29,485 bases of DNA from a virus. Of the stretch, positions 3,188 to 28,030 are shown one piece after another (the first letter of the stretch is position 1; each line of letters opens with the position of its first letter). The stretch is taken from IMG/VR virus record IMGVR_UViG_3300047560_000516, positions 1-29,485 of that record. One strand, written 5' to 3'. Made by a program: the position numbers and the translations under genes. The notes beneath the pieces are model-generated. The model was not told where the DNA came from, ran no database searches, and was given only the letters and a program-made list of their open reading frames with translations.

Positions 3188-3390
3188 ACTGTCTCCGTTA
3201 GTGTGGGAATCATTGCTACTGCTTGAGAAAACGCACGTAACCCGTCTACTGTTTGACACTCGGCTACAATCGTGCCCTTACTGTTATGAATGTAAAATCC
3301 ATTAGTAAGGACACTTACTTTGTATCCATAGTTCAGTAAGTCTTGCTCCCAGCTTCGGAAGCTACGAATCAATTCACTTTCTTTCATCAT
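3184..3390 (-). CDS. Small uncharacterised protein
   Basis: 68 residues from the ATG at 3390 (MMKESELIRSFRSWEQDLL), which overlaps the TGA of the upstream ATPase. The predicted fold is one helix followed by a short beta meander (YKVSVLTNGFYIHNSKGTIVAEC) and a final helix. Not recognised. The tight overlaps on both sides place it in an operon with the ATPase and the membrane protein. Confidence 0.55.
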   Translation of the reverse strand: MMKESELIRSFRSWEQDLLNYGYKVSVLTNGFYIHNSKGTIVAECQTVDGLRAFSQAVAMIPTLTETV

Positions 3391-4394
3391 GCACCTTTCA
3401 TACAAGTTGCTTTAGCCAACTCACGCCAGTTGCCCGAAATCTTAACGAGGTCAGCAACTTTCAAACACATACGCAAAGACACCTCACGCAATTTGTTGTG
3501 ATTGTCAGTGATAAATTGCATCACTTCGTCAGTTTGTTCCTGAGTAAAGTCATAGTCAGCAAACAAACCACCGTCAGCATCGCGGTGAACTTGCTTGATA
3601 CGCAAGAGTTTGTCACGCTCGGTGTCAACAGTCAGATCCAAGAAGTGACTACGACTTTGCAAAGCATCCAAGTGAGGTGTCATCTTGCTTTGCTTTTTAG
3701 TGTCAAATGTTTTGTTTGTAATGAAAATGATTGAACCATTAAAGTTGAAAGTGTTAGGCACACCCTCGTCACGCAACAAACGTGAATCTTTGTTCCAAGA
3801 GATACGGCGAGTCTTGCCTGAATCGAGAGCACCTTTCAACACGTTAACAGCGTCTTGGTCATCCCAAATATCACAGTCATCAAATACGAGAACGTTTTTA
3901 GCGTCACTGAATTTGTAAAGTTTTGCGAACAAGCCGATGCCTGACATTGCACCTTTGACAATTTCAAAGCGAGGACGCTTGCCTGCAATCTTGTCAAACA
4001 TTGAGGCTTTTTCCATTTGTGTGATAACACCATGTGACTTACCGATACCTGCAGGACCTGTCACAATCATAGCACGAATGTCACCTGCGATACAGGCACG
4101 AGACATTTCATCAAGCACTGCGAAACGACTAGCAATGCGATCCATTGCCTCAGTTTCAGATTCGACAACTTTTTCTTCAACAACAGGTGTATCACCCGAA
4201 ACGAATTGCAAGCAATCGTGGGTGTCTACATTGATACGAATTTCTGAACTACGACCGGGGAACTGACCCTCGTTACGAACTGTAACGAAACCACCTTTAG
4301 CACCAAGTTGGTAACCTTTCACGAGGGTGAAAACTTTGTCGTTTACCGGGGTGTTACGATATGTACCTGAAGTGATGCGAACTGTGCTAGTCAT
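3387..4394 (-). CDS. P-loop AAA-type ATPase, phage-encoded
   Basis: 335 residues. The N-terminal 75 residues look like a beta-rich domain. It is followed by an ATPase core with Walker A GPAGIGKS (about residues 113-120), Walker B VLVFDD (about 168-173), an 'IIFITNK' sensor-1-like segment and a C-terminal helical lid. It resembles phage AAA proteins that act as helicase or protease-like remodellers, but no specific partner can be named. The start has AGGAG about 6 nt upstream and a consensus promoter. It heads an operon that continues through three small genes. It is a different family from the MoxR ATPase at 25.4 kb. Confidence 0.75.
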   Translation of the reverse strand: MTSTVRITSGTYRNTPVNDKVFTLVKGYQLGAKGGFVTVRNEGQFPGRSSEIRINVDTHDCLQFVSGDTPVVEEKVVESETEAMDRIASRFAVLDEMSRACIAGDIRAMIVTGPAGIGKSHGVITQMEKASMFDKIAGKRPRFEIVKGAMSGIGLFAKLYKFSDAKNVLVFDDCDIWDDQDAVNVLKGALDSGKTRRISWNKDSRLLRDEGVPNTFNFNGSIIFITNKTFDTKKQSKMTPHLDALQSRSHFLDLTVDTERDKLLRIKQVHRDADGGLFADYDFTQEQTDEVMQFITDNHNKLREVSLRMCLKVADLVKISGNWRELAKATCMKGA

Positions 4395-4483: not shown

Positions 4484-4726
4484 TTATTCTACGAAAGTAA
4501 CACTTTCAAAGTTGTTTTGCTTGCAAATGCGCTGGGCATGTGCTTGAACGATGCTGGGATCGACCTGAACAGTATCAAAATCATAAGTAACTAGAGCAGT
4601 CTTAGTAGTTACTTTTGGATTGTCGCTTGCTAGAATTCGCAAGCATACAATTTCATCACTGTAGGGCTTCTTTTTGAAAACAACTTTGACAAACATCTTA
4701 GACACTGCAACAGAATTGAATTTCAT
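4484..4726 (-). CDS. Small uncharacterised protein
   Basis: 80 residues, MKFNSVAVSKMFVKVVFKKK at the N-terminus, rich in alternating beta-type residues, ending in a helix and strand (VQAHAQRICKQNNFESVTFVE). No cysteine motif, signal peptide or membrane segment. Not recognised. It has its own consensus promoter and about 30 nt of leader with GAGAG before the ATG. The consensus ATPase promoter lies immediately downstream, so this is likely a single-gene early transcript. Confidence 0.6.
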   Translation of the reverse strand: MKFNSVAVSKMFVKVVFKKKPYSDEIVCLRILASDNPKVTTKTALVTYDFDTVQVDPSIVQAHAQRICKQNNFESVTFVE

Positions 4727-4757: not shown

Positions 4758-4786
4758 ATTATATACCCAAACTGATTTATTGTCAA
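4758..4786 (-). promoter_or_regulatory. Consensus sigma70 promoter for the 4484-4726 gene
   Basis: Minus-strand TTGACA (4786-4781), 17 bp, TATAAT (4763-4758). The TGA inside the -35 hexamer (4785-4783) is also the stop codon of the upstream gene. The spacer begins ATAAATC, shared with other promoters in this window. Confidence 0.9.
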
Positions 4787-5619
4787 CCTCTGACGATATC
4801 CCAGTCACTGAGTATGAAGTGGTCGAACTCATCCAATCTACGTCTAGTGAATGTGCCCTTGATTGTCATTTGAGATTCGCTAGTAAAGATATGGTCCCAG
4901 AGGTGCTTCAACTGGTTCTTTCTCTCAACGGATATCATTACGCCTGCATCAAGTTTCGAATCCTTAAACCAATATTGAACCTGGTCTACATTCTTAGTCT
5001 TGCGATGGATGCTTTTGATTGGGTGCAACTCAGTAGATAGTTGCAATGTATAGGGCTTGTGGCTCCTATTCATTTCATCAAAGTTTTGATCCGTCTTAAG
5101 TTGTGATTTAATACTATCCAAGTCTGTATCATACTGGTGGAAGATAGGTAAGTAATATGCCATACCCATCATATTTTCTTTGAAGACTGTTCCATCACTG
5201 TGGACAAGTTTATTCAGGTCTTCTCTGAATGGTGACATTCTTTCAGTAGAACCTTTTAGTTTCATCATCATAATCTTCTGACTGTAGTATTTTCGAATCT
5301 CTGCTGCCTTCTCTCTGTCAGCATCAGTTACTTTTCGAAACAACGATTGATCCAACATCTTGTAATAAGAGTTATCACCTTCTTCTTTCAATCGGTTCAT
5401 AGTTGCTGACAATGAAATGATATCTTCTTCAGATTCAATCACTTGATACTTCTTCACTTGCGGATTGCTTAATGTAACCCAGTCATCGAATCCAGAACCT
5501 GATGCACCTATGGTGATATTTGAAAATGGTTGTGAAGACAACGGTGAAAGTGTGATAGTGTTGTTTGGCATGTTTCTTCCAGTTAGTTGTAAAAAGCCTC
5601 GGCCTTTAAAATTAGACAT
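4783..5619 (-). CDS. Uncharacterised phage protein, 278 residues
   Basis: Begins MSNFKGRGFLQLTGRN. A Ser/Thr/Pro-rich region (residues 18-50) is followed by a mainly helical charged region with SQKIMMMKLKGSTERMSPFREDLN and a C-terminal basic stretch. No membrane segment, signal peptide or catalytic motif recognised. The ATG at 5619 was chosen over the in-frame TTG at 5634, which lies inside the promoter. Its -10 box ends 5 nt before the ATG, predicting a leaderless message. Its TGA stop lies inside the -35 box of the next promoter. Confidence 0.6.
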   Translation of the reverse strand: MSNFKGRGFLQLTGRNMPNNTITLSPLSSQPFSNITIGASGSGFDDWVTLSNPQVKKYQVIESEEDIISLSATMNRLKEEGDNSYYKMLDQSLFRKVTDADREKAAEIRKYYSQKIMMMKLKGSTERMSPFREDLNKLVHSDGTVFKENMMGMAYYLPIFHQYDTDLDSIKSQLKTDQNFDEMNRSHKPYTLQLSTELHPIKSIHRKTKNVDQVQYWFKDSKLDAGVMISVERKNQLKHLWDHIFTSESQMTIKGTFTRRRLDEFDHFILSDWDIVRG

Positions 5620-5624
5620 GCTAT

Positions 5625-5660
5625 ATAATAACAAAACCTCGTACTGTTGTCAATACGAGG
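5625..5660 (-). promoter_or_regulatory. Promoter overlapping a terminator-like hairpin
   Basis: On the minus strand TTGACA (5653-5648), 17 bp, TATTAT (5630-5625). The same DNA holds an inverted repeat CCTCGTA / TACGAGG (5660-5654 and 5643-5637) whose loop contains the -35 hexamer, and the 3' arm is followed by TTTTGTTATTAT. It can therefore terminate uvsY transcripts and start the next gene. The ATG at 5619 lies 5 nt after the -10. Confidence 0.7.
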
Positions 5661-16283: not shown

Positions 16284-17111
16284 ATGCACAAATTTCTATT
16301 AGGATTGTTGTTATTAGTTTCAGCATCCGCACAAGCATGGGACCAAAGAGCCCCGTTACCCGTTCAAGCATGTCAAGTCCATAGCCCATATGGATTTGCT
16401 AACACACAGCGTCAAGCAAGTGCTATCTGCCGTGAGGGCTATCTAGTTGCTTATGACGCACCAGTTAAAATTCCGGTTTATGTAGCATATACATTGAAGC
16501 CAGAAAACGCATTAGGTTGCTTCCCTAGAACAAACGCCTTCGTGGCTGATGCTAGTGTACAAGGTGGTGCTACACCATCTGACTATGTGGGCACAGGATA
16601 CGACAAGGGACACGCGGCACCGGACGGCGACCTATCTTATACTCAGCAAGTGGAATACGAAAGTTTTTTGATGACAAACATGTATCCGCAGCATGGAAGT
16701 CTAAACCGTGGAATCTGGAAGTTACTGGAAACTTCAGTACGTGGATGGGCAGTACAAACGAACCAAAGCTATACAATATTCGTTGGAGCTATGTATGGCG
16801 CTGGTGATGAATTCATCGGTAAGAACAAAGACATTATCGTTCCACACGCATACTACAAGATTGTAATCAATAATCAAACAGGTGCTGTTGCTGGTTGGAG
16901 ATTCCCTCACACTAAGCCATATGTTAACTTGGGCAACGACTTAACTAAGTTCCGTGTACCAGTCGCTGACATTATGAAAGAAGCAGGTGTTCAATATGCG
17001 TTCCCTGGAAACGCAAAAGAATTGGCACCAGGCCAAGAGTGGCCTGTAAACTTCGGTGCTCTTACACAGGCTAAGAGAAGCAAGTGCGGTGCTAACGCTT
17101 CAGCAGATTAA
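16284..17111 (+). CDS. Secreted DNA/RNA non-specific endonuclease (NUC1 family)
   Basis: 275 residues. A Sec-type signal peptide is visible: MHK, then FLLGLLLLVSASAQA with cleavage likely after A-Q-A (about residue 18). The mature domain has the beta-beta-alpha metal motif YDKGH (H110; Lys replaces Arg of the usual DRGH), then FLMTNMYPQHGSLNRGIWKLLE, in which N141 and E148 match the Mg-binding Asn and Glu of Serratia-type nucleases. Four of the cysteines could form disulfides in the periplasm. It is the only plus-strand gene, expressed from a late promoter beside the fibre gene and ending next to the spanin genes. It would act on DNA outside the cytoplasm: periplasmic incoming DNA, or DNA released at lysis. 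Specificity is not determined. Confidence 0.88.
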   Translation: MHKFLLGLLLLVSASAQAWDQRAPLPVQACQVHSPYGFANTQRQASAICREGYLVAYDAPVKIPVYVAYTLKPENALGCFPRTNAFVADASVQGGATPSDYVGTGYDKGHAAPDGDLSYTQQVEYESFLMTNMYPQHGSLNRGIWKLLETSVRGWAVQTNQSYTIFVGAMYGAGDEFIGKNKDIIVPHAYYKIVINNQTGAVAGWRFPHTKPYVNLGNDLTKFRVPVADIMKEAGVQYAFPGNAKELAPGQEWPVNFGALTQAKRSKCGANASAD

Positions 17112-17808: not shown

Positions 17809-17816
17809 TATTTATG
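17809..17816 (-). promoter_or_regulatory. Late promoter (CATAAATA) for the spanin pair
   Basis: CATAAATA ends 5 nt before the ATG at 17803. Its TAA (17814-17812) is the stop codon of the aminotransferase gene. The lysis genes are thus timed late independently of the sugar genes upstream. Confidence 0.65.
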
Positions 17817-18876
17817 CATAGAACTCGTGTACTTTATCAGAAATATACTCAACTTCCAAGTCCGTCAGTTCGGGATAGATAGGTAGACTTAAAACACCCC
17901 TAGAAAGCATAACACTCATACTTAGCATATCGGGTTTGGGTAGATTACTAGCTAAGGGCAAGTCTCCTAGTACATATTCATAGTGAATTTTACTAGAGAT
18001 TCCATTGAGCATCAGATGGGTATGTAGGGAATTACGTTGATCCAAGTAAAGTACATATTTCTGATGGGCGTGAGGTCCGGGTTCTCTGCTCAAACAGTTT
18101 AGGGGCAGGTGCTCAAATGATTCATTCCAGAACTTAGCAATCTTTGCTCTACGTTCTTGCCACTGGTCAATATATCTAATTCTTACCATCAAGTGAGCGC
18201 AATCTAATTCACTCATCTTGCTGTTTGTGCCAGTTTCTTGAAAGTATGGCTTATAGTTATCTTTATAACTTGATGCATAAAGATACAAGTGCTCGTCATT
18301 AGTTACAATTGCACCACCGTTGCCACTAGCATTTAGATTCTTTGTTGGGTCGAAACTAATTGCCATACCACTTCCTACATTACCACCCGCTTCTAACCAG
18401 TGCTGCGCTCCGTCTACAATGACACCATGACTTTCTTTGTAGTTGTGCGTTGGCCAAGGTCTGCGGCCAGTGTACCCCATGCAACATTCATATACGCCTC
18501 CGCGTGTATTAGTTAGCATGATACCATTCTTATCAGTATCTTCTAATTCAACGTTCCATCCAGCAGTTAAGAAAGCATTTAATGTAGCAGGATACGTGAT
18601 GTTAGGTAACAAAATTATAGGGTTACCCATCATGGTGCTAAGATGCTTTTGCTTTTTATATCGTGCAATAATCTCAAGTGCTTGTGTACCTGAATGCACG
18701 GTGATGGCATATTTTGTTTTAGTCTTGTGCTTCAACCATTCTTCAAACGAACGGGTAAAGTGACCACCCACAAGCTGACCATCTTTCATGGCATCAGTAG
18801 TTGCCTGAAGCAACTCAGCACCTATATGCTTAAATTGCCTTTTTAGACCAAAATGGGGAATTACTAAGCCACTCAT
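17812..18876 (-). CDS. DegT/DnrJ/EryC1/StrS-type PLP-dependent sugar aminotransferase
   Basis: 354 residues. Transfers an amino group to keto-sugar nucleotides in glycan synthesis. Visible: VHSGTQALE (PLP phosphate-binding region, about residues 61-69), IVDGAQHW (Asp that binds the PLP nitrogen), and SFDPTKNLNASGNGGAIVT (Lys that forms the internal aldimine, with the GG of the family signature). N-terminal IPHFGL replaces the usual 'IP...P'. It overlaps the end of the epimerase by 47 nt, so the two are coupled. Likely builds a modified sugar on virion, DNA or host surface; target unknown. Confidence 0.85.
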   Translation of the reverse strand: MSGLVIPHFGLKRQFKHIGAELLQATTDAMKDGQLVGGHFTRSFEEWLKHKTKTKYAITVHSGTQALEIIARYKKQKHLSTMMGNPIILLPNITYPATLNAFLTAGWNVELEDTDKNGIMLTNTRGGVYECCMGYTGRRPWPTHNYKESHGVIVDGAQHWLEAGGNVGSGMAISFDPTKNLNASGNGGAIVTNDEHLYLYASSYKDNYKPYFQETGTNSKMSELDCAHLMVRIRYIDQWQERRAKIAKFWNESFEHLPLNCLSREPGPHAHQKYVLYLDQRNSLHTHLMLNGISSKIHYEYVLGDLPLASNLPKPDMLSMSVMLSRGVLSLPIYPELTDLEVEYISDKVHEFYA

Positions 18877-19801
18877 AATACTTTTGAAATCCTTCTTCTA
18901 CATCAGTTTTAGGGTCGTAGCCAAAATCTCTACGAGCGGCATCAATGTTCAATGCACCACGACTTGGAAAGTCTGCGTCTTTGTCACGTACATTGATAGT
19001 TCCTTTACCTACAATCTTCACTGCAAGTTGTGCTGCATCTAAAAGGTTGCGACTATGAGACTTAGTAATGTTGTATGTTTTATTGTCGGTGTTGTCTGAG
19101 AGGGCTGCGGCGACGATTCCGTCTGCGGCGTCTTCGACATATGTGAAGTCGAGGGTTTCACCAGCGCCGTTGACGTTGAGAGTGCCGCCTCGCATTGCAG
19201 TGAGCATGAACTTTGCGATGACCCTGTCTTCCACGTCAAGTGGGCCGTATACAGCAGAGGGGCGTATAATAGTATAATTAAGATTGTCACGACGGCTATA
19301 ATCTTTAACAAGCCATTCGCCCGTGAGTTTGAGTATTCCGTATTGTCCTTGTGGTTTGCAGTCATAATCTTCCTTTACATCATCAGTAAAATCACCATAT
19401 ACCATTGAACTGCTGATATAAACAAACTTTCTAACATCATAGTTCTTACTTGCTTCTAATAAGTTGAGCAAGCCCTCACTCATAACTCTACTTCCCCATG
19501 CAGGATTTGCATTGACAACTTTTTGTCTCGGGAAGCTAGCCATGTGAATTACAATCTCAGGCTGTTCAATGTTGAATACTTCATCCATACGTCTAGCATC
19601 ACATATATCGTATTCATACAATCCACCTACGTCTTCAATCTTCTTTAAACGTTCTTCCATCAAGTAATCAATTTCATCTTGTGGTATGATTCCGTAGTTT
19701 GTTTTGATATCCATGATAGACACGATATGTCCCATGTCTTGTAGTCTCTTGACTACGTTGTGACCTATTAGGCCTAACCCACCTGTTACTAAAATGTTCA
19801 T
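18830..19801 (-). CDS. NAD-dependent nucleotide-sugar epimerase/dehydratase (extended SDR)
   Basis: 323 residues. Rossmann motif MNILVTGGLGLIGHNVVKRL (GxxGxxG at about 7-13), catalytic Ser in YISSSMVYGDF, YxxxK in QYGILKLTGEW and RPSAVYGP. These define a GalE/RmlB-type extended short-chain dehydrogenase. ATG at 19801 overlaps the stop of the next gene upstream. The segment 19081-19260 is about 57% GC, against 30-40% around it, and covers the region of the protein just after the catalytic Tyr. Probably makes the keto-sugar used by the neighbouring aminotransferase. Confidence 0.87.
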   Translation of the reverse strand: MNILVTGGLGLIGHNVVKRLQDMGHIVSIMDIKTNYGIIPQDEIDYLMEERLKKIEDVGGLYEYDICDARRMDEVFNIEQPEIVIHMASFPRQKVVNANPAWGSRVMSEGLLNLLEASKNYDVRKFVYISSSMVYGDFTDDVKEDYDCKPQGQYGILKLTGEWLVKDYSRRDNLNYTIIRPSAVYGPLDVEDRVIAKFMLTAMRGGTLNVNGAGETLDFTYVEDAADGIVAAALSDNTDNKTYNITKSHSRNLLDAAQLAVKIVGKGTINVRDKDADFPSRGALNIDAARRDFGYDPKTDVEEGFQKYYEWLSNSPFWSKKAI

Positions 19802-21697: not shown

Positions 21698-22396
21698 TTA
21701 TGCAAATGTTGGTGTCTTAACCTTTGGTGGGCGACCTCTACCTCTTTTAACTGGTGTTTCGGCTGTTACTTGAGTTGCTGTAGGAATACCTAACATATCG
21801 TTAGCTTGTTGTTCCAAACGTGCGCTCTCTGCTAACAAACCTTTTGCTTCTGATGCCATGCGTTGTGCTTGTTGTAGCAAGTTGTTTGCTAATACATTGT
21901 CACCTAATACACCTTGTGGTGCGTTAGTAACAGGTGGCAAATCACGTGCAGCCTGTTCGCCGCGCATCTTACGTGCAATCTCAGCTGGGTCTTGAATACC
22001 GCGGCTTGAATCAATTTCAGCTAAACGCTTAACTGCTTCTTCACCTTGTTGCATCTCATCCAAAATCTTGTTCAATTCATCTAACTTGATACGAGTAGTA
22101 GAGTTAGGTGTGACCACAACTTGTGATGTTTGTACTTTCTTCAACAAGCCCTGGCTGTGCAATACTTGCAAAATAAATTTACCATCTTTAGTATGAGTAC
22201 GATTCAAAGCGTCAGCTAAGTTCTCACTACTCTGACCGATATCGCTCTCGATACACTTCATCATCGGGTCATGGATGTGAATGTTCAATGTTTCGGTATA
22301 TGTAACTAAGCACATGTGTGGCTCGTTAGGTACTTCTCTAAAAATGATAGCTACCTTTCTATCACCATGTTTACCGACGTGTCTTAAAAAACTCAT
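21698..22396 (-). CDS. Possible RNA polymerase-binding protein (RpbA-like) with C-terminal AT-hook
   Basis: 232 residues. The first 110 residues (MSFLRHVGKHGDRKVAIIFR, EPHMCLVTYTETL, FILQVLHSQGLLKKVQTSQ, STTRIKLDELNKIL) resemble the proteins of aquatic T4-like phages that are listed as RpbA; T4 RpbA binds the host RNA polymerase core. I am not sure of this link. A helical region rich in Ala/Gln/Leu follows, and the last residues KRGRGRPPKVKTP are a clear AT-hook, which binds the minor groove of AT-rich DNA. It may thus link polymerase to DNA. AAGGAG lies 6 nt before the ATG. Confidence 0.5.
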   Translation of the reverse strand: MSFLRHVGKHGDRKVAIIFREVPNEPHMCLVTYTETLNIHIHDPMMKCIESDIGQSSENLADALNRTHTKDGKFILQVLHSQGLLKKVQTSQVVVTPNSTTRIKLDELNKILDEMQQGEEAVKRLAEIDSSRGIQDPAEIARKMRGEQAARDLPPVTNAPQGVLGDNVLANNLLQQAQRMASEAKGLLAESARLEQQANDMLGIPTATQVTAETPVKRGRGRPPKVKTPTFA

Positions 22397-23122: not shown

Positions 23123-23457
23123 GTTATAACCTGCTTTTTTGTTTCAATTCTATCAGAATAAATCTTTTCGCCATTCTTTCGAATGAACTCAACTAATCCC
23201 TGTGGGCTTTCTTTGAAAGTTTGTCTAATAGATTCTTCCGTAACGCCTTCGTCTGCAACAAACGAATAAATTTCATAACAACGTTGGCTATTCATTCTAG
23301 CACGGAGCATCATCATTTGAATACTTGGGCCATTGTCGATTGGTTCATCTTTCAACACTGCCCAAGTTTTCTTCTGATGCCACTCAGTAACATTGAACAG
23401 GCATTCAAGCCCGTACATGTCCCACATTGCCAAGTAGTTAGTCTTCGTACTCGTCAT
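23119..23457 (-). CDS. Uncharacterised phage protein
   Basis: 112 residues from MTSTKTNYLAMWDMYGLECL. Sequence after that includes FNVTEWHQKKTWAVLKDEP, then PSIQMMMLRARMNSQRCYEIYSFVADEGVTEESIRQTFKESPQGLVEFIRKNG. It appears helical. The ATG at 23457 was chosen because the longer frame runs into the membrane gene upstream; here the overlap is 20 nt. No function recognised. Confidence 0.6.
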   Translation of the reverse strand: MTSTKTNYLAMWDMYGLECLFNVTEWHQKKTWAVLKDEPIDNGPSIQMMMLRARMNSQRCYEIYSFVADEGVTEESIRQTFKESPQGLVEFIRKNGEKIYSDRIETKKQVIT

Positions 23458-23569
23458 TCTTCTTAATACCCTTAAGCATATAACTAAAGAACCAGAAGAA
23501 CGCAAATAACATGCCTCCTACTATTCCCGCTAACAAGATATATCCAAATGATTCTAATGCTAGTTCCAT
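23438..23569 (-). CDS. Single-pass small membrane protein
   Basis: 43 residues: MELALESFGYILLAGIVGGM, then LFAFFWFFSYMLKGIKKNDEYED. Residues about 10-32 are a hydrophobic span, with a basic stretch (KGIKKN) on the inner side and an acidic end. GGAG lies 6 nt before the ATG, and the gene begins 9 nt after the stop of the VWA protein gene. It is too short for usual gene finders. Role unknown; being next to the VWA/MoxR pair, it may anchor that complex in the membrane (inference). Confidence 0.6.
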   Translation of the reverse strand: MELALESFGYILLAGIVGGMLFAFFWFFSYMLKGIKKNDEYED

Positions 23570-23578
23570 ACTAACTCC

Positions 23579-24877
23579 TTACTTTTTATGGTCATCATAA
23601 ATTGCATACTGACCGAATGGGGGATTCGGGTTAGGGTCACCGTGAATGATCCAAGTAGTATCGCAGTAGTCAGGGTCACCCCAAGAGCCACAGGGATAGC
23701 CGTCAGTGAAGACAATCAAACGCTTGGGCACGTTGCCGACTTCTTTCAAGTAATCAAAGATAACATCGAAGTCAGTACCACCGCCACCTTGAGGTTCATA
23801 CGCTTCAATTGAGTCCATGTTCTCACTAGTGAAGTCTGCTGGGTTATACCACTTAGTATCAAAACAGAATACATGAACCTTGTAGCCATCAAACGCTTCC
23901 ATCATGCCTGCAATTTCACCCAAGAACGCTTGTGCTTGCTTGTCGCTGATAGAGCCTGACATGTCAATAGAAACAACAACGTCAATTTCCTCACCGGGTG
24001 TCATACCTGGCATAACTGCATCCATGTGCCAACCTCTGCGTGAAGGGCGCATCCAAGAATAGTCAGTACGAATTGCACTAGTCAAGTTTGTTTGAATGAG
24101 TTCACGCCAGGGCATAACTGGATCAGTTACTTGACGAACAAGACGCTCAACACCTAAGGGCAATGATCCTGCTTCGGCAGATTGTGCCGCATTGATGATT
24201 GCTTGCTTAACTTCTTGACGGATTCTGTCACGTTCTTCTTGTGACATTTTCGGGCGGCCTTTGCCCTTACCATCGTTGCCGTCGCCATCACCGCTGCCGT
24301 CACCATCATCACCTTCTTCACCATCCATGTGGTCATCTAGCAATTGGTCAATCAATGAATCAATGTTAATCTTCTGGACGTTTTTCATCAAGTCATCATA
24401 GATTTCCTCAGCTGGCTTGCCATCATACTTTTGCTCATACAAGCAAGGTACTGTGGTGATGAACTGACCAACTTTGTGTCGTTTCAAGTCGGCGTTAACT
24501 GCGTAGTCATCAGCAATGTTCCAGATTTGAGGGTCACGATGATTGCGGCGACCCATGTGGTCATAAACAACGTGTAATACTTCGTGAGCCACTAAGAATT
24601 CAACTTCTTTAGGCTTCAACATCATAATAAAGCGGCTATTGTAATAGAATGTTTGACCATCAGTTGCCGCTGTGCTACACCATTCGTCTGCGTTGACAAG
24701 TTTCAATCGAGTAGCCAAGTTACCGAAGAATGAATGACGCAAAAGCAAACCAATACGTGCTGTTACTAGGCGCTCACGTGCATCGGCATCAATTCTAGTA
24801 TCGGTGGGGCCTACAAGATTTTCAAATTTTGAACTACGCTTTTTCTTGCTTTTTGATTTGTCGAGCACTTCACTCAT
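23579..24877 (-). CDS. VWA protein with HExxH metallopeptidase-like N-terminus (DUF2201 type)
   Basis: 432 residues. N-terminal half: VEFLVAHEVLHVVYDHMGRR, a zinc motif H98-E99-x-x-H102 with another His at 107. Then an acidic Gly/Asp linker (about 186-205). C-terminal half: a von Willebrand A domain with a complete metal site, D305-M-S-G-S309, T368 in GGGGTDF and D392 in VFTDGY. This is the DUF2201 layout of a metallopeptidase-like region plus VWA-like domain, usually paired with MoxR AAA+ ATPases; a MoxR gene follows upstream at 25421. Such pairs act as chaperone-like remodellers in bacteria; in a phage the target is unknown. The promoter at 24905 is perfect consensus, so it is probably an early gene. 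Confidence 0.85.
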   Translation of the reverse strand: MSEVLDKSKSKKKRSSKFENLVGPTDTRIDADARERLVTARIGLLLRHSFFGNLATRLKLVNADEWCSTAATDGQTFYYNSRFIMMLKPKEVEFLVAHEVLHVVYDHMGRRNHRDPQIWNIADDYAVNADLKRHKVGQFITTVPCLYEQKYDGKPAEEIYDDLMKNVQKINIDSLIDQLLDDHMDGEEGDDGDGSGDGDGNDGKGKGRPKMSQEERDRIRQEVKQAIINAAQSAEAGSLPLGVERLVRQVTDPVMPWRELIQTNLTSAIRTDYSWMRPSRRGWHMDAVMPGMTPGEEIDVVVSIDMSGSISDKQAQAFLGEIAGMMEAFDGYKVHVFCFDTKWYNPADFTSENMDSIEAYEPQGGGGTDFDVIFDYLKEVGNVPKRLIVFTDGYPCGSWGDPDYCDTTWIIHGDPNPNPPFGQYAIYDDHKK

Positions 24878-24904
24878 AATGGATCCTTTTTAAGTTTATG
24901 TGTT

Positions 24905-24933
24905 ATTATAACAGATAACAGAATTATTGTCAA
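24905..24933 (-). promoter_or_regulatory. Consensus sigma70 promoter for the VWA gene
   Basis: TTGACA (24933-24928), 17 bp, TATAAT (24910-24905). The spacer starts ATAATTC as in the promoter at 4427-4455. A leader of about 25 nt with AAGGA precedes the ATG at 24877. Confidence 0.92.
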
Positions 24934-24934
24934 G

Positions 24935-25168
24935 TCACTGAAGCCTACGGTCTGTGCGGTCTGTTTCTTCAAAATGGGTGAGCAATTCCTGCAATTCGTC
25001 CTCAGGTAGATCCTCGACGGCTACCGAGTTCTCAAGGAAGTCACCACTTTCGAAAGCGGCTTCAATATCCTTTATCAACTGGTCCAGCTCTTCCTGGGTA
25101 CCATCGAAATGGTCAAAACAACCAGGCGCAAAAGTAAGTTTCAGTTTCCTAGATTCGTCTGTCATCAT
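24935..25168 (-). CDS. Small acidic protein before the VWA gene
   Basis: 77 residues, MMTDESRKLKLTFAPGCFDH, then FDGTQEELDQLIKDIEAAFESG, and an acidic end (EDLPEDELQELLTHFEETDRTD). The first part 'LKLTFAPGCFD.F.GTQEELD' looks like a small phage family without assigned role. ATGATG start overlaps the stop of the short gene upstream. Promoter of the VWA gene begins just after its stop. Confidence 0.65.
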   Translation of the reverse strand: MMTDESRKLKLTFAPGCFDHFDGTQEELDQLIKDIEAAFESGDFLENSVAVEDLPEDELQELLTHFEETDRTDRRLQ

Positions 25169-25329
25169 AGACCTCGGTATCCTGCATCAAATGCAATACG
25201 TGCGTAATCAGGTGCATTATCAATGCAGTACAAAGCCTCAGCCGCAGTTTTACTGAGACCACGGGCACGGGCACTTTGCCCACGTGTATAAAAATACATC
25301 TTACCGGAAAATGATTTACTACGCTTCAT
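25165..25329 (-). CDS. Small basic protein
   Basis: 54 residues, MKRSKSFSGKMYFYTRGQSA, then RARGLSKTAAEALYCIDNAPDYARIAFDAGYRGL. A basic first third with a helix-turn-like C-terminus. It has AAGGA about 8 nt before the ATG, in direct continuation of the T-tail of the terminator at 25341. Its stop overlaps the start of the next gene as ATGA. Not recognised, but placement, ribosome site and codon phase support it as a real gene. Confidence 0.65.
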   Translation of the reverse strand: MKRSKSFSGKMYFYTRGQSARARGLSKTAAEALYCIDNAPDYARIAFDAGYRGL

Positions 25330-25340
25330 AATATGTCCTT

Positions 25341-25373
25341 AAAAAAAGGGTGAGAACATTTCTATCCTCACCC
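25341..25373 (-). terminator. Rho-independent terminator after the MoxR gene
   Basis: Minus-strand stem GGGTGAG / CTCACCC with a 12-nt loop followed by TTTTTTT. It separates the MoxR transcript from the small genes downstream. Confidence 0.85.
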
Positions 25374-25377
25374 CCAA

Positions 25378-25393
25378 AGTGTCTTACGACACT
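25378..25393 (-). terminator. GNRA-type hairpin after MoxR stop
   Basis: Minus-strand AGTGTC-GTAA-GACACT: 6-bp stem with a GTAA tetraloop, 28 nt after the MoxR stop and directly upstream of the terminator. Same loop as the gp32 hairpin at 7883. Confidence 0.5.
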
Positions 25394-25420
25394 AGAGAGT
25401 CAACATGAGGTCGACTAAAA

Positions 25421-26530
25421 TTAACTGCCTGCATCAACGATGTACTTGCCGTACTTCTTGTGGAAGTTATCAAAGTTTTTCAACTGTGATGGTTCGATTG
25501 GCAACTTGTATGTTTTCAATGCAATCTTAGCACCCATAACGACCAACTCAGTTTCAAAGTTGTCCATCATGTATTGAATGAAGTTATATGCCATTTCGTG
25601 GAACTTCTTATTGTCAACTTTCTTGTTGTCAACCATGTCCTTCAATTCATAGCACATTGAAATTGTCAACGAATACATCGCTGAAATTTCCTTCACTTGC
25701 AAGTCTTTGACTTTGCCTGACAAGATATCTTCTGGTGCGGGCATCTTGCCTGCAACTTTGCGGTGAGCCATAAACTTCACAGCAAGACCGTCACCGATAG
25801 CACCTGCAACCAAGTTGAATTGTGTATCAGTATCCATGTCCTCGTCATTCAACAAGTCACTGACGAAACACCATGAACGAGGTGTAGCGAATGCACGTGA
25901 ACTAGATTTAGCATCAAAGTCATACATGTCATTTTTAGCGAATGACAAGTAACCAACAACGTCCTTGTGAATGTTGTTGTTCACAGCCCACAACTGCCAA
26001 GATGCAAAGTCGGGGCGCATTTCTAAGTGAACGAAACGATTAGCGAGGGGCATTGGCATGCGATATGTCACACCTTTGTCACTATCACGATTACCTGCCG
26101 CAACGATGACGACATTATCAGGGAGTTTGTACTTACCGACACGACGGTTCAAGATAAGTTGATAACCTGCAGCCTGTACTGCTGGAGGTGCTGAGTTCAT
26201 TTCGTCCAAGAACAACACGACTGTTTTGAACTGTGATGCGAATTCTTCGCTAGGCAAATCGACTGGCTCAGCCCAATCCATCTTACCGTTCTCTTTGTTG
26301 AAGAATGGGATACCACGAATGTCAGTGGGTTCCATTTGTGCCATACGCAAGTCAATCATAGCATCAGGTGAACCACCAAGCTCGACTGCAAGTTGTTGCA
26401 CAACATCAGACTTACCGATGCCGGGAGGGCCCCACAAGAATACGGGACGCTTAGATTTCATTGCTTGCTTAAGTGATTTGGCAGCTTGCAACGATGTGAT
26501 TGTGTGATTGTCAGAAACGACTGATGCCAT
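25421..26530 (-). CDS. MoxR-family AAA+ ATPase
   Basis: 369 residues. Walker A GPPGIGKS at about 34-41, Walker B VVLFLDE at about 104-110, then MNSAPPAVQAAGYQLILNRRVG (arginine-containing segment) and sensor 1 VIVAAGNRDSDKG. This is the MoxR/RavA pattern; MoxR proteins work with VWA proteins as ATP-driven chaperones for complex assembly or metal-centre insertion. The VWA gene lies about 550 nt downstream with two small genes in between. ATG at 26530 has AGGAG upstream and a strong promoter; a terminator follows at 25341, so it is transcribed separately from the VWA gene. Confidence 0.9.
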   Translation of the reverse strand: MASVVSDNHTITSLQAAKSLKQAMKSKRPVFLWGPPGIGKSDVVQQLAVELGGSPDAMIDLRMAQMEPTDIRGIPFFNKENGKMDWAEPVDLPSEEFASQFKTVVLFLDEMNSAPPAVQAAGYQLILNRRVGKYKLPDNVVIVAAGNRDSDKGVTYRMPMPLANRFVHLEMRPDFASWQLWAVNNNIHKDVVGYLSFAKNDMYDFDAKSSSRAFATPRSWCFVSDLLNDEDMDTDTQFNLVAGAIGDGLAVKFMAHRKVAGKMPAPEDILSGKVKDLQVKEISAMYSLTISMCYELKDMVDNKKVDNKKFHEMAYNFIQYMMDNFETELVVMGAKIALKTYKLPIEPSQLKNFDNFHKKYGKYIVDAGS

Positions 26531-26572
26531 TGTTAACTCCTGTTGTTGGCTTTAAGAAAATTTAGAATGTGT

Positions 26573-26601
26573 AGTATATGACAGATTGGATTTATTGTCA
26601 A
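26573..26601 (-). promoter_or_regulatory. Near-consensus sigma70 promoter for MoxR
   Basis: TTGACA (26601-26596), 17 bp, TATACT (26578-26573). The TGA in the -35 box (26600-26598) is the stop codon of the upstream zincin gene. The spacer starts ATAAATC. Confidence 0.9.
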
Positions 26602-27056
26602 ATACTTTTTGAAAGTTTTTTGAATCGTTTGCCCAATTCTTTTTCGCAATAAACTAGGGCACGTGATGCTAAAAGTCTCTCGCGGGCAAATGCTTCTTGT
26701 TCCCAGGGACGCTCGTGATAGACTGTGTTGACCTTTTGACCCAACCAAGTTTGACGTTGCTTGGAGTCAAGTTGAAGTTGACCTTTTGCGATTTGTTTCA
26801 CGTGAACCATTTCATGTGCTAGACACTGAACCAAGTCAGCTTCGCCTAGGCCCCCATCAATCATAATTACGATATCACGATAGGCAACCTCAGAGCATAC
26901 TCCGTTGTAGCCTTCCCGTTTACGCAATCCAGGGGAATTGTAAATTGTTAACGCATATTTGCTTTTCTCCAGTTTTAATTCTTTACGCAAGAATTGGGTT
27001 GCAAGTTCAATCGTAAGTTTACGCTTGACAGAACGAGTTACAATTTCGATTTCCAT
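26598..27056 (-). CDS. Zincin-type metallopeptidase-like protein (HExxH)
   Basis: 152 residues. VQCLAHEMVHVKQIAKG carries HEMVH, the zinc-binding HExxH, and the later RPWEQEAF offers a third ligand Glu, in the manner of small gluzincin or SprT-like phage proteins. The first third has short strands and a basic stretch (VKRKLTIELATQFLRKELKL). Whether it cleaves protein is not shown. It has its own promoter with the -10 only 6 nt before the ATG (predicted leaderless), and the stop is inside the MoxR promoter. Close to the MoxR/VWA genes, so possibly part of the same early function. Confidence 0.75.
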   Translation of the reverse strand: MEIEIVTRSVKRKLTIELATQFLRKELKLEKSKYALTIYNSPGLRKREGYNGVCSEVAYRDIVIMIDGGLGEADLVQCLAHEMVHVKQIAKGQLQLDSKQRQTWLGQKVNTVYHERPWEQEAFARERLLASRALVYCEKELGKRFKKLSKSI

Positions 27057-27062
27057 ACTGTA

Positions 27063-27091
27063 AGTATAACACCTAAGTGATTTATTGTCAA
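27063..27091 (-). promoter_or_regulatory. Near-consensus promoter, predicted leaderless, for the zincin gene
   Basis: TTGACA (27091-27086), 17 bp, TATACT (27068-27063), then 6 nt to the ATG at 27056. Spacer begins ATAAATC. Confidence 0.85.
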
Positions 27092-27116: not shown

Positions 27117-27515
27117 TTACCACATTTGGGGTTCAGACACTGGCTCGTCTTTGAGCACCTTTACAATTTCTTCCTTCTCAGTAAAGATTAGTTTACATTC
27201 TTCTAAGACTTTTCTACGTTCCTCTGTAGATAACTTTGTCCATGCATCAACAATCTCATAAGAACCATGTGTGATTCCATGAGGCATTTCGTTGACAATG
27301 AAAGACACCAGTTTTTTCAATGCGGGAATTGTGTTGGCTGGGTGCGAACGAGCAACAGCATCCATGAAGTCATTTGCCAACACGCTTGTGAAGAAGGATC
27401 CGGGATTGAACCCATGCACAAGATAATTGTAGATGGGGTCGGAAAAGTCTTTGTCTACTTTGTAGAGTGCCATTTTGTTTTGTAGCTTGTACTTACCGTA
27501 CTTTGTCAAATTCAT
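27117..27515 (-). CDS. Uncharacterised phage protein after the TOPRIM gene
   Basis: 132 residues, MNLTKYGKYKLQNKMALYKV, then DPIYNYLVHGFNPGSFFTSVLANDFMDAVARSHPANTIPALKKLVSFIVNEMP and a helical, Lys/Glu-rich end. The central 'YNYLVHGF.PG.FFTSVLANDF..A...SHP.N....L..L..FI' is seen in a phage hypothetical family; role not known to me. ATGA overlap with the TOPRIM gene suggests they act together. Confidence 0.65.
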   Translation of the reverse strand: MNLTKYGKYKLQNKMALYKVDKDFSDPIYNYLVHGFNPGSFFTSVLANDFMDAVARSHPANTIPALKKLVSFIVNEMPHGITHGSYEIVDAWTKLSTEERRKVLEECKLIFTEKEEIVKVLKDEPVSEPQMW

Positions 27516-28030
27516 GCGAACTCCTTCAATAAATTAGTAACATATTCATCACTACTATCACCCAAGTCATGATCCTCACAGAAAACAGCAACATCGCCGA
27601 ACTTTGCTAACTTACGACCCGCGGTGTCATTATCACAGACAGCTACTACTTTTCTGTTAAGACAAGTAAGCCAGTTACGCAAGTCGGGAGTAGGGTTGTT
27701 GCTTAATACTGCTAACGCACTAACACCACGCTCAGTGAGTCGGGCGGCATCGAACAAACCCTCACACACAAACACGACATTAGGAGTCAGGTGCAAACTT
27801 TCTACACCCCAAACTGTAAGAGTAGGTTGCTTTCGGTAAGTAAAGTACTTGCCCTCTTTGGGATTGTTGTTAGGTTTCTTTTCGCCATCAGGTCTATATT
27901 GTTGGTAGCCAACTAACTGACCACTCAAGTTCCAAAGATAAAATGTGGCGACACGCTCTACATCATCAAGCATTGGACGATGTAGTTCTAAGTCTAGATG
28001 GCGACTACGAAGGTGTTCAGTAAGATTCAT
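27512..28030 (-). CDS. Stand-alone TOPRIM domain protein
   Basis: 172 residues. TOPRIM signature: VVFVCEGLFDAARL (conserved Glu) and KVVAVCDNDTAGRKL (conserved D-x-D) about 45 residues later, followed by DLGDSSDEYVTNLLKEF. The N-terminal part (FYLWNLSGQLVGYQQYRPDGEKK) matches the region before TOPRIM in phage primase-like proteins, but there is no zinc finger, no polymerase part and no helicase, so it is only about half the length of T4 gp61. Could be a primase remnant, a nuclease of OLD type without its ATPase, or a separate regulator. The promoter -10 is 6 nt before the ATG. Confidence 0.75.
   Translation of the reverse strand: MNLTEHLRSRHLDLELHRPMLDDVERVATFYLWNLSGQLVGYQQYRPDGEKKPNNNPKEGKYFTYRKQPTLTVWGVESLHLTPNVVFVCEGLFDAARLTERGVSALAVLSNNPTPDLRNWLTCLNRKVVAVCDNDTAGRKLAKFGDVAVFCEDHDLGDSSDEYVTNLLKEFA

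Follow-up and report, generated by a model that had tools for sequence, protein, structure and literature searches.

A 29,485-base virus record (IMG/VR record IMGVR_UViG_3300047560_000516, positions 1 to 29,485, hereafter the window) encodes a MoxR-type AAA+ ATPase together with a VWA-domain protein carrying a putative N-terminal metallopeptidase domain. By sequence the pair is a member of an already described family, that of the jumbo-phage MoxR-VWA/metallopeptidase pair and gp24/gp25 of phage N4. We tentatively favour its being a phage protein-remodelling machine with a phage-encoded target, most likely proteins of the virion-assembly pathway. To the family we add conserved promoters of the pair, an enrichment of transmembrane (TM) open reading frames (ORFs) 3′ of the VWA gene, a syntenic gene at 21698-22396 and a mass match of the MoxR homologue in the phAPEC6 virion.

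25421-26530, minus strand: MoxR-type AAA+ ATPase P0002, 369 amino acids (phrog_1297; N4 gp24 family), from motifs and phrog and Pfam profiles
23579-24877, minus strand: VWA protein P0001 with N-terminal HExxH metallopeptidase domain, 432 amino acids (DUF2201_N + DUF2201; phrog_1314; N4 gp25 family), from motifs, profiles and a structural model

The MoxR-VWA pair and its relatives

P0002 contains a Walker A motif (GPPGIGKS, with K40) and a Walker B motif (VVLFLDE, with D109/E110), matches phrog_1297 'ATPase' at E 5.8e-99 and exceeds the Pfam cut-offs of AAA_5 and AAA_3. K40, D109/E110, N147, R165 and R218 are invariant across an alignment of 17 MoxR relatives including PA5oct, rV5 and N4 gp24, the last of which, at 28% identity to the window protein, lies at the lowest end of the alignment and keeps the catalytic residues. 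With its Walker, sensor and arginine-finger residues present, P0002 is by these motifs a member of the MoxR AAA+ ATPases. Comparison with CobS/CobT of the aerobic cobaltochelatase gave weak matches to phrog_249 and phrog_17276; the window is itself a genome fragment, and a CobN gene may lie outside it. NCBIfam profiles gave no useful assignment.

P0001 carries HEVLH at residues 98-102 and a metal ion-dependent adhesion site (MIDAS) composed of DMSGS at 305-309, T368 and D392. Pfam identifies DUF2201_N, a putative metallopeptidase domain (E 2.5e-44, 152.4 bits against a cut-off of 23.2), followed by the VWA-like DUF2201 (E 2.6e-15, 57.1 bits against 26.4), the domain order of the DUF2201 VWA-metallopeptidases (PF13203 + PF09967), and the match to phrog_1314 has an E-value of 1.2e-108. 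Among 31 aligned VWA relatives, reaching down to N4 gp25 at 28% identity, H98, E99, H102, H107, D124 and N128 are invariant, as are D305, S307, S309 and T368 of the MIDAS, with D392 nearly so. Both genes are under purifying selection, the ratio of nonsynonymous to synonymous substitution rates (dN/dS) being ~0.06-0.14. An AlphaFold model of P0001 (mean predicted local distance difference test score, pLDDT, 75.8) shows the VWA fold clearly (VIA-align Z up to 12.5). Its Foldseek list includes, with weak E-values, the Rea1 MIDAS and NorD from a NorQD complex; this search of the whole model returned nearly all VWA domains and barely probed the N-terminal domain by fold. A profile of the N-terminal domain matches MJ1213 (4qhf, E 8e-4), known as the minimal metallopeptidase selecase. 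The phrog_1314 family bears the label 'HNH endonuclease'. By Pfam, P0001 consists of DUF2201_N and VWA-type domains alone, with no HNH, and from these profiles the label looks like an annotation error. It has spread to many RefSeq records, including those of N4, PA5oct, RaK2 and CBB.

Relatives of the VWA protein occur in ~775 and of MoxR in ~819 of 50,697 phage records, and the phages carrying the pair infect hosts from Escherichia to Bacillus and cyanobacteria and have unrelated morphologies. The MoxR-VWA pairing proposed in a preliminary description of the window holds throughout 48 viral loci: every contig of sufficient length has MoxR ahead of VWA on one strand, an order that is kept even where up to ~4 kb of other genes lie between them. 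A scan of bacterial contigs for the pair returned four loci, mostly fragments. An rV5-like VWA gene (27.9% identity, 91% query coverage) is present in the E. coli plasmid record CP057073 (137,565 bases), which probably represents a misfiled vequintavirus genome.

A third gene accompanies the pair in jumbo phages.

21698-22396, minus strand: third syntenic gene (phrog_15894), which tracks the MoxR-VWA pair in jumbo phages

Its homologue is found 3′ of the pair in nearly all long loci, and among annotated phages the 56 records with this homologue closely match the 57 jumbo records with the VWA protein, Salicola phage SCTP-2 being the clear exception. It mostly lies just downstream of the pair; in PA5oct it is on the opposite strand, and in Atu_ph07 and Phosso several kb separate it from the pair. 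In N4-like phages tblastn found no homologue. A model of the protein gave no match in the PDB (best E 1.4) and matched eight viral models at E ≤ 0.001, seven of them unnamed.

The closest described system is in the group 2.2 jumbo phages, in which a MoxR (ASV44729.1)-vWA (ASV44728.2) pair with an N-terminal metallopeptidase was proposed to act in virion assembly plus peptidolytic processing (Iyer et al. 2021, PMC7824862). These are adjacent genes of Atu_ph07 (202253-204869), the VWA record bearing the note 'Sll7028 protein'. They share with the window pair the same two proteins, the domain fusion and the gene order, both window proteins being 35.7% identical to them, whereas separate MoxR and VWA promoters, a nearby accessory zincin, small genes and a TM microprotein set the window apart from the published description. 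The adjacent gp24/gp25 genes, core in N4 and 24 other N4-like phages (PMC4193335; Schitoviridae), encode a homologous ATPase and DUF2201/VWA protein with catalytic residues kept, and differ from the window pair in their ~28% identity and in being transcribed as middle genes. The RaK2 pair is annotated as gp24-like and gp25-like after N4. PMC9525291 names N4 gp24/gp25 'rIIA/rIIB-like', which disagrees with the assignment of rII to gp33/gp34 in the N4 record. The literature searched contained no experimental test of what N4 gp24/gp25 do; neither is named in the main text of CRISPRi-ART, whose gp25 belongs to PTXU04.

More distant counterparts include the DUF2201-VWA/MoxR operon of Synechocystis pSYSA, which has the same two-gene arrangement, with overlapping genes, but is plasmid-borne, ~27% identical and outside any phage context. 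Like the MoxR-VWA couples NorQ/NorD, RavA/ViaA and CbbQ/CbbO, the window combines a predicted AAA+ ring protein and a MIDAS VWA partner. The substrates of those three couples are defined enzymes, and we know of no fused HExxH domain in their VWA partners. The Acidianus two-tailed virus (ATV) likewise encodes a MoxR-VWA couple, although it is an archaeal virus whose pair is without a peptidase domain; that couple has been cited as needed for tail assembly (PMC7824862). In NorQ/NorD the VWA partner plugs the pore of the ATPase ring (PMC9976466).

Virion detections and promoters

Virion mass spectrometry of phAPEC6 lists gp265c, an 'ATPase' of 49.52 kDa with 6 unique peptides (PMC7247149). phAPEC6 belongs to the same species as 121Q, whose MoxR has a computed mass of 49.51 kDa, and the two phages agree in gene order and in the masses of neighbouring products (thymidylate synthase, td, 35.51 vs 35.51 kDa). 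The 121Q homologue of 21698-22396 (25.03 kDa) likewise corresponds to phAPEC6 gp262c (25.02 kDa), represented by one peptide in the virion table. The PA5oct MoxR record carries the note 'ESI-MS/MS', and the pairs of 121Q and CBB are flanked by structural genes.

A scan for TTGACA-16/18-TATAAT with ≤ 1 mismatch identified seven promoter sites in the window, every one on the coding strand, where shuffled window sequence gives ~0.5 expected sites (perfect −35, ≤ 1 mismatch in the −10). Three of them bear on the pair and on a neighbouring zincin gene.

24905-24933, minus strand: sigma-70 type promoter of the VWA gene, TTGACA-17-TATAAT, 0 mismatches
26573-26601, minus strand: sigma-70 type promoter of the MoxR gene, TTGACA-17-TATACT, 1 mismatch
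27063-27091, minus strand: sigma-70 type promoter of the zincin gene, TTGACA-17-TATACT, 1 mismatch

No site with ≤ 1 mismatch falls in ~5.7 to 24.9 kb of the window, which holds uvsX, terminase, td and the dihydrofolate reductase gene frd. At the same stringency 30 relatives have 127 sense-strand vs 8 antisense-strand sites. Most MoxR and VWA upstream regions contain a site with 0-1 mismatch ~50-80 bases before the start, while shuffled upstream regions mostly reach only 3-4 mismatches. The promoter is weaker in 121Q and RaK2 (2-3 mismatches upstream of the pair), and none of this type was seen upstream of the pair in PA5oct, N4 or rV5. The separate promoters already remarked on in the preliminary description, one each 5′ of VWA, MoxR and zincin, are thus borne out, and judged by these sites those of MoxR and VWA are real and conserved in relatives. 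Such conserved sigma-70 type sites predict transcription by a host-type RNA polymerase. Near-perfect sigma-70 promoters also precede genes at 3387-4394, 4484-4726 and 4783-5634, all on the minus strand, the first encoding an AAA-like protein (phrog_1250).

Accessory genes and genome context

Around and between the two genes lie four smaller ones.

26598-27056, minus strand: accessory zincin P0003, 152 amino acids (phrog_10499/16532), HEMVH at 81-85 plus a conserved RPWExEA..RE
25165-25329, minus strand: 54-amino acid basic small protein between MoxR and VWA, found in near relatives only
24935-25168, minus strand: 77-amino acid acidic small protein between MoxR and VWA, found in few near relatives only
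23438-23569, minus strand: 43-amino acid single-TM microprotein directly 3′ of the VWA gene, from position and hydrophobicity

These genes, MoxR and VWA had been described with positions and motifs that are right to the residue. In the comparison with relatives that had been suggested for the gene set and its order, MoxR followed by VWA recurs in every sufficiently long locus, and the zincin and the two small genes of the MoxR-VWA interval occur in near relatives only. The HEMVH motif of P0003 is invariant in its relatives. In a comparison with SprT/WLM-type minigluzincins its match to Spartan (6mdw) was weak (E 0.27) and its Pfam matches were under cut-off. The zincin gene adjoins MoxR in 14 of the 48 viral loci, all in the closest clade, is missing from one locus (L002) whose MoxR is 94% identical to that of the window, and evolves faster than the MoxR and VWA genes. 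Because of this patchy distribution we reject the proposal that the second zincin is a fixed part of the machine; on its phylogenetic spread it is an accessory. The wider notion that MoxR, VWA, the second zincin and the TM protein make up a single fixed machine across the 3.6-kb region has in its favour that the genes are adjacent and share a promoter type. It is very improbable, given also the zincin's faster evolution and the two small genes' presence in still fewer relatives.

Of 33 relatives, 14 have an ORF of 28-60 amino acids with a strongly hydrophobic 19-residue stretch directly after the VWA stop codon; of 368 other ORFs in those loci, 7 qualify. The 33 loci are non-independent. Single-TM microproteins of 33-43 amino acids at this place form at least three unrelated-looking sequence groups, in which position and topology recur; none was found beside the VWA gene in 121Q or RaK2. 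Their recurrence suggests membrane coupling of the machine in some lineages.

The window is coding almost wholly on the minus strand and includes T4-type core genes (a UvsX-like recombinase, single-strand DNA-binding protein, large terminase, thymidylate synthase and dihydrofolate reductase) as well as a primase-like Toprim protein. The viral contigs of its closest relatives reach 367 kb, so the window comes from a jumbo phage, which has T4-type core genes but is not a close relative of T4. A near-DNA search among annotated phages gave no matches to the window. The 172-amino acid Toprim protein (27512-28030, minus strand) matches only positions 147-336 of 435 in phrog_849 (phage primase), its middle to C-terminal part, so the primase may be split. 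The lone plus-strand gene (16284-17111) encodes a nuclease (phrog_14168) with a signal-peptide-like N-terminus, and sugar-modification genes (aminotransferase-like, nucleotide-sugar epimerase; 17812-19801, minus strand) lie between structural and nucleotide-metabolism genes.

Proposed function of the machine and competing readings

In the mechanism that we propose, MoxR would form an ATP-hydrolysing ring, and the MIDAS-bearing VWA domain would dock on or in its pore to present or recognise the substrate. The fused HExxH domain, probably a small gluzincin-like metallopeptidase, would then cleave or grip the remodelled protein. A conserved HExxH domain in a VWA partner of a pore-plugging type makes remodelling or unfolding coupled to cleavage the natural reading of these sequences. 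With strong host-type promoters of its own, the machine would be expressed early, and in the nearest clades the small TM protein encoded immediately 3′ may anchor it in the membrane.

As to the substrate, we favour a phage-encoded one because of the wide host range, the core status of the pair in N4-like phages and the virion detections, and virion-assembly proteins appear the best, though still tentative, candidates. The published proposal for the pair (PMC7824862), with the ATV couple as its precedent, and the structural genes that flank the pair in 121Q and CBB speak for this choice. Several observations weigh against virion assembly. The VWA protein is absent from the phAPEC6 virion table and neither MoxR nor VWA is in that of CBB, while thymidylate synthase is also in the phAPEC6 table, so that carry-over is possible. 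Host-type promoters imply early expression, the N4 genes belong to the middle class, and bacterial plasmids also carry the pair, which is hence not inherently virion-related.

Early-type promoters and the TM microprotein leave room for a host, possibly membrane, target. The pair may accordingly be a host-takeover machine, expressed early from host sigma-70 promoters to remodel or cleave a complex of the host, perhaps at the inner membrane via the TM protein, a reading that we consider possible if rather unlikely. The strength and conservation of the promoters before both genes, the excess of TM ORFs directly after VWA and the action of bacterial MoxR-VWA pairs on host enzyme complexes all fit it. 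Hosts as far apart as Escherichia, Bacillus and cyanobacteria fit a phage-intrinsic target better, however, MoxR was detected in a virion proteome, and the TM ORF is missing beside VWA in 121Q and RaK2.

It is doubtful that the pair instead matures or remodels phage DNA-replication enzymes, as an assembly factor of replication or nucleotide metabolism. This draws on neighbourhood alone: frd, td and the primase-like gene in the window, the placing of the N4 pair among middle replication genes, and a thymidylate synthase gene near the pair in 121Q, RaK2, CBB and Atu_ph07. In 121Q and CBB, however, the pair is beside structural genes as well. In a bolder and improbable reading, the early-made machine of this lineage would be held in the membrane by the microprotein and would use ATP there to drive proteolysis. 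Its target would be a host membrane complex or membrane-bound prohead initiation, and the 21698-22396 protein would serve as a jumbo-specific adaptor or substrate.

Described conflict systems of bacteria have MoxR-vWA couples at their core (PMC7159879), and a role in defence or counter-defence, such as superinfection exclusion or an anti-defence module, might be envisaged. We consider it improbable: the scanned window genes include no VMAP, iSTAND, FtsH or propeller third component, the bpMoxR score of P0002 (20.1 bits) is under the Pfam cut-off of 27, PADLOC returns only weak, generic AAA+ matches, and core status in N4-like phages is unlike the patchy occurrence of defence genes. Host takeover or defence had been the functions first suggested for this region, and neither gained direct support.

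The gp24/gp25 pair, core in N4-like phages, is among the more widespread gene pairs of large phages to which no function has been assigned. Correct naming, conserved promoters, a linked microprotein and a virion mass match make its role open to testing in phage N4, a tractable model.

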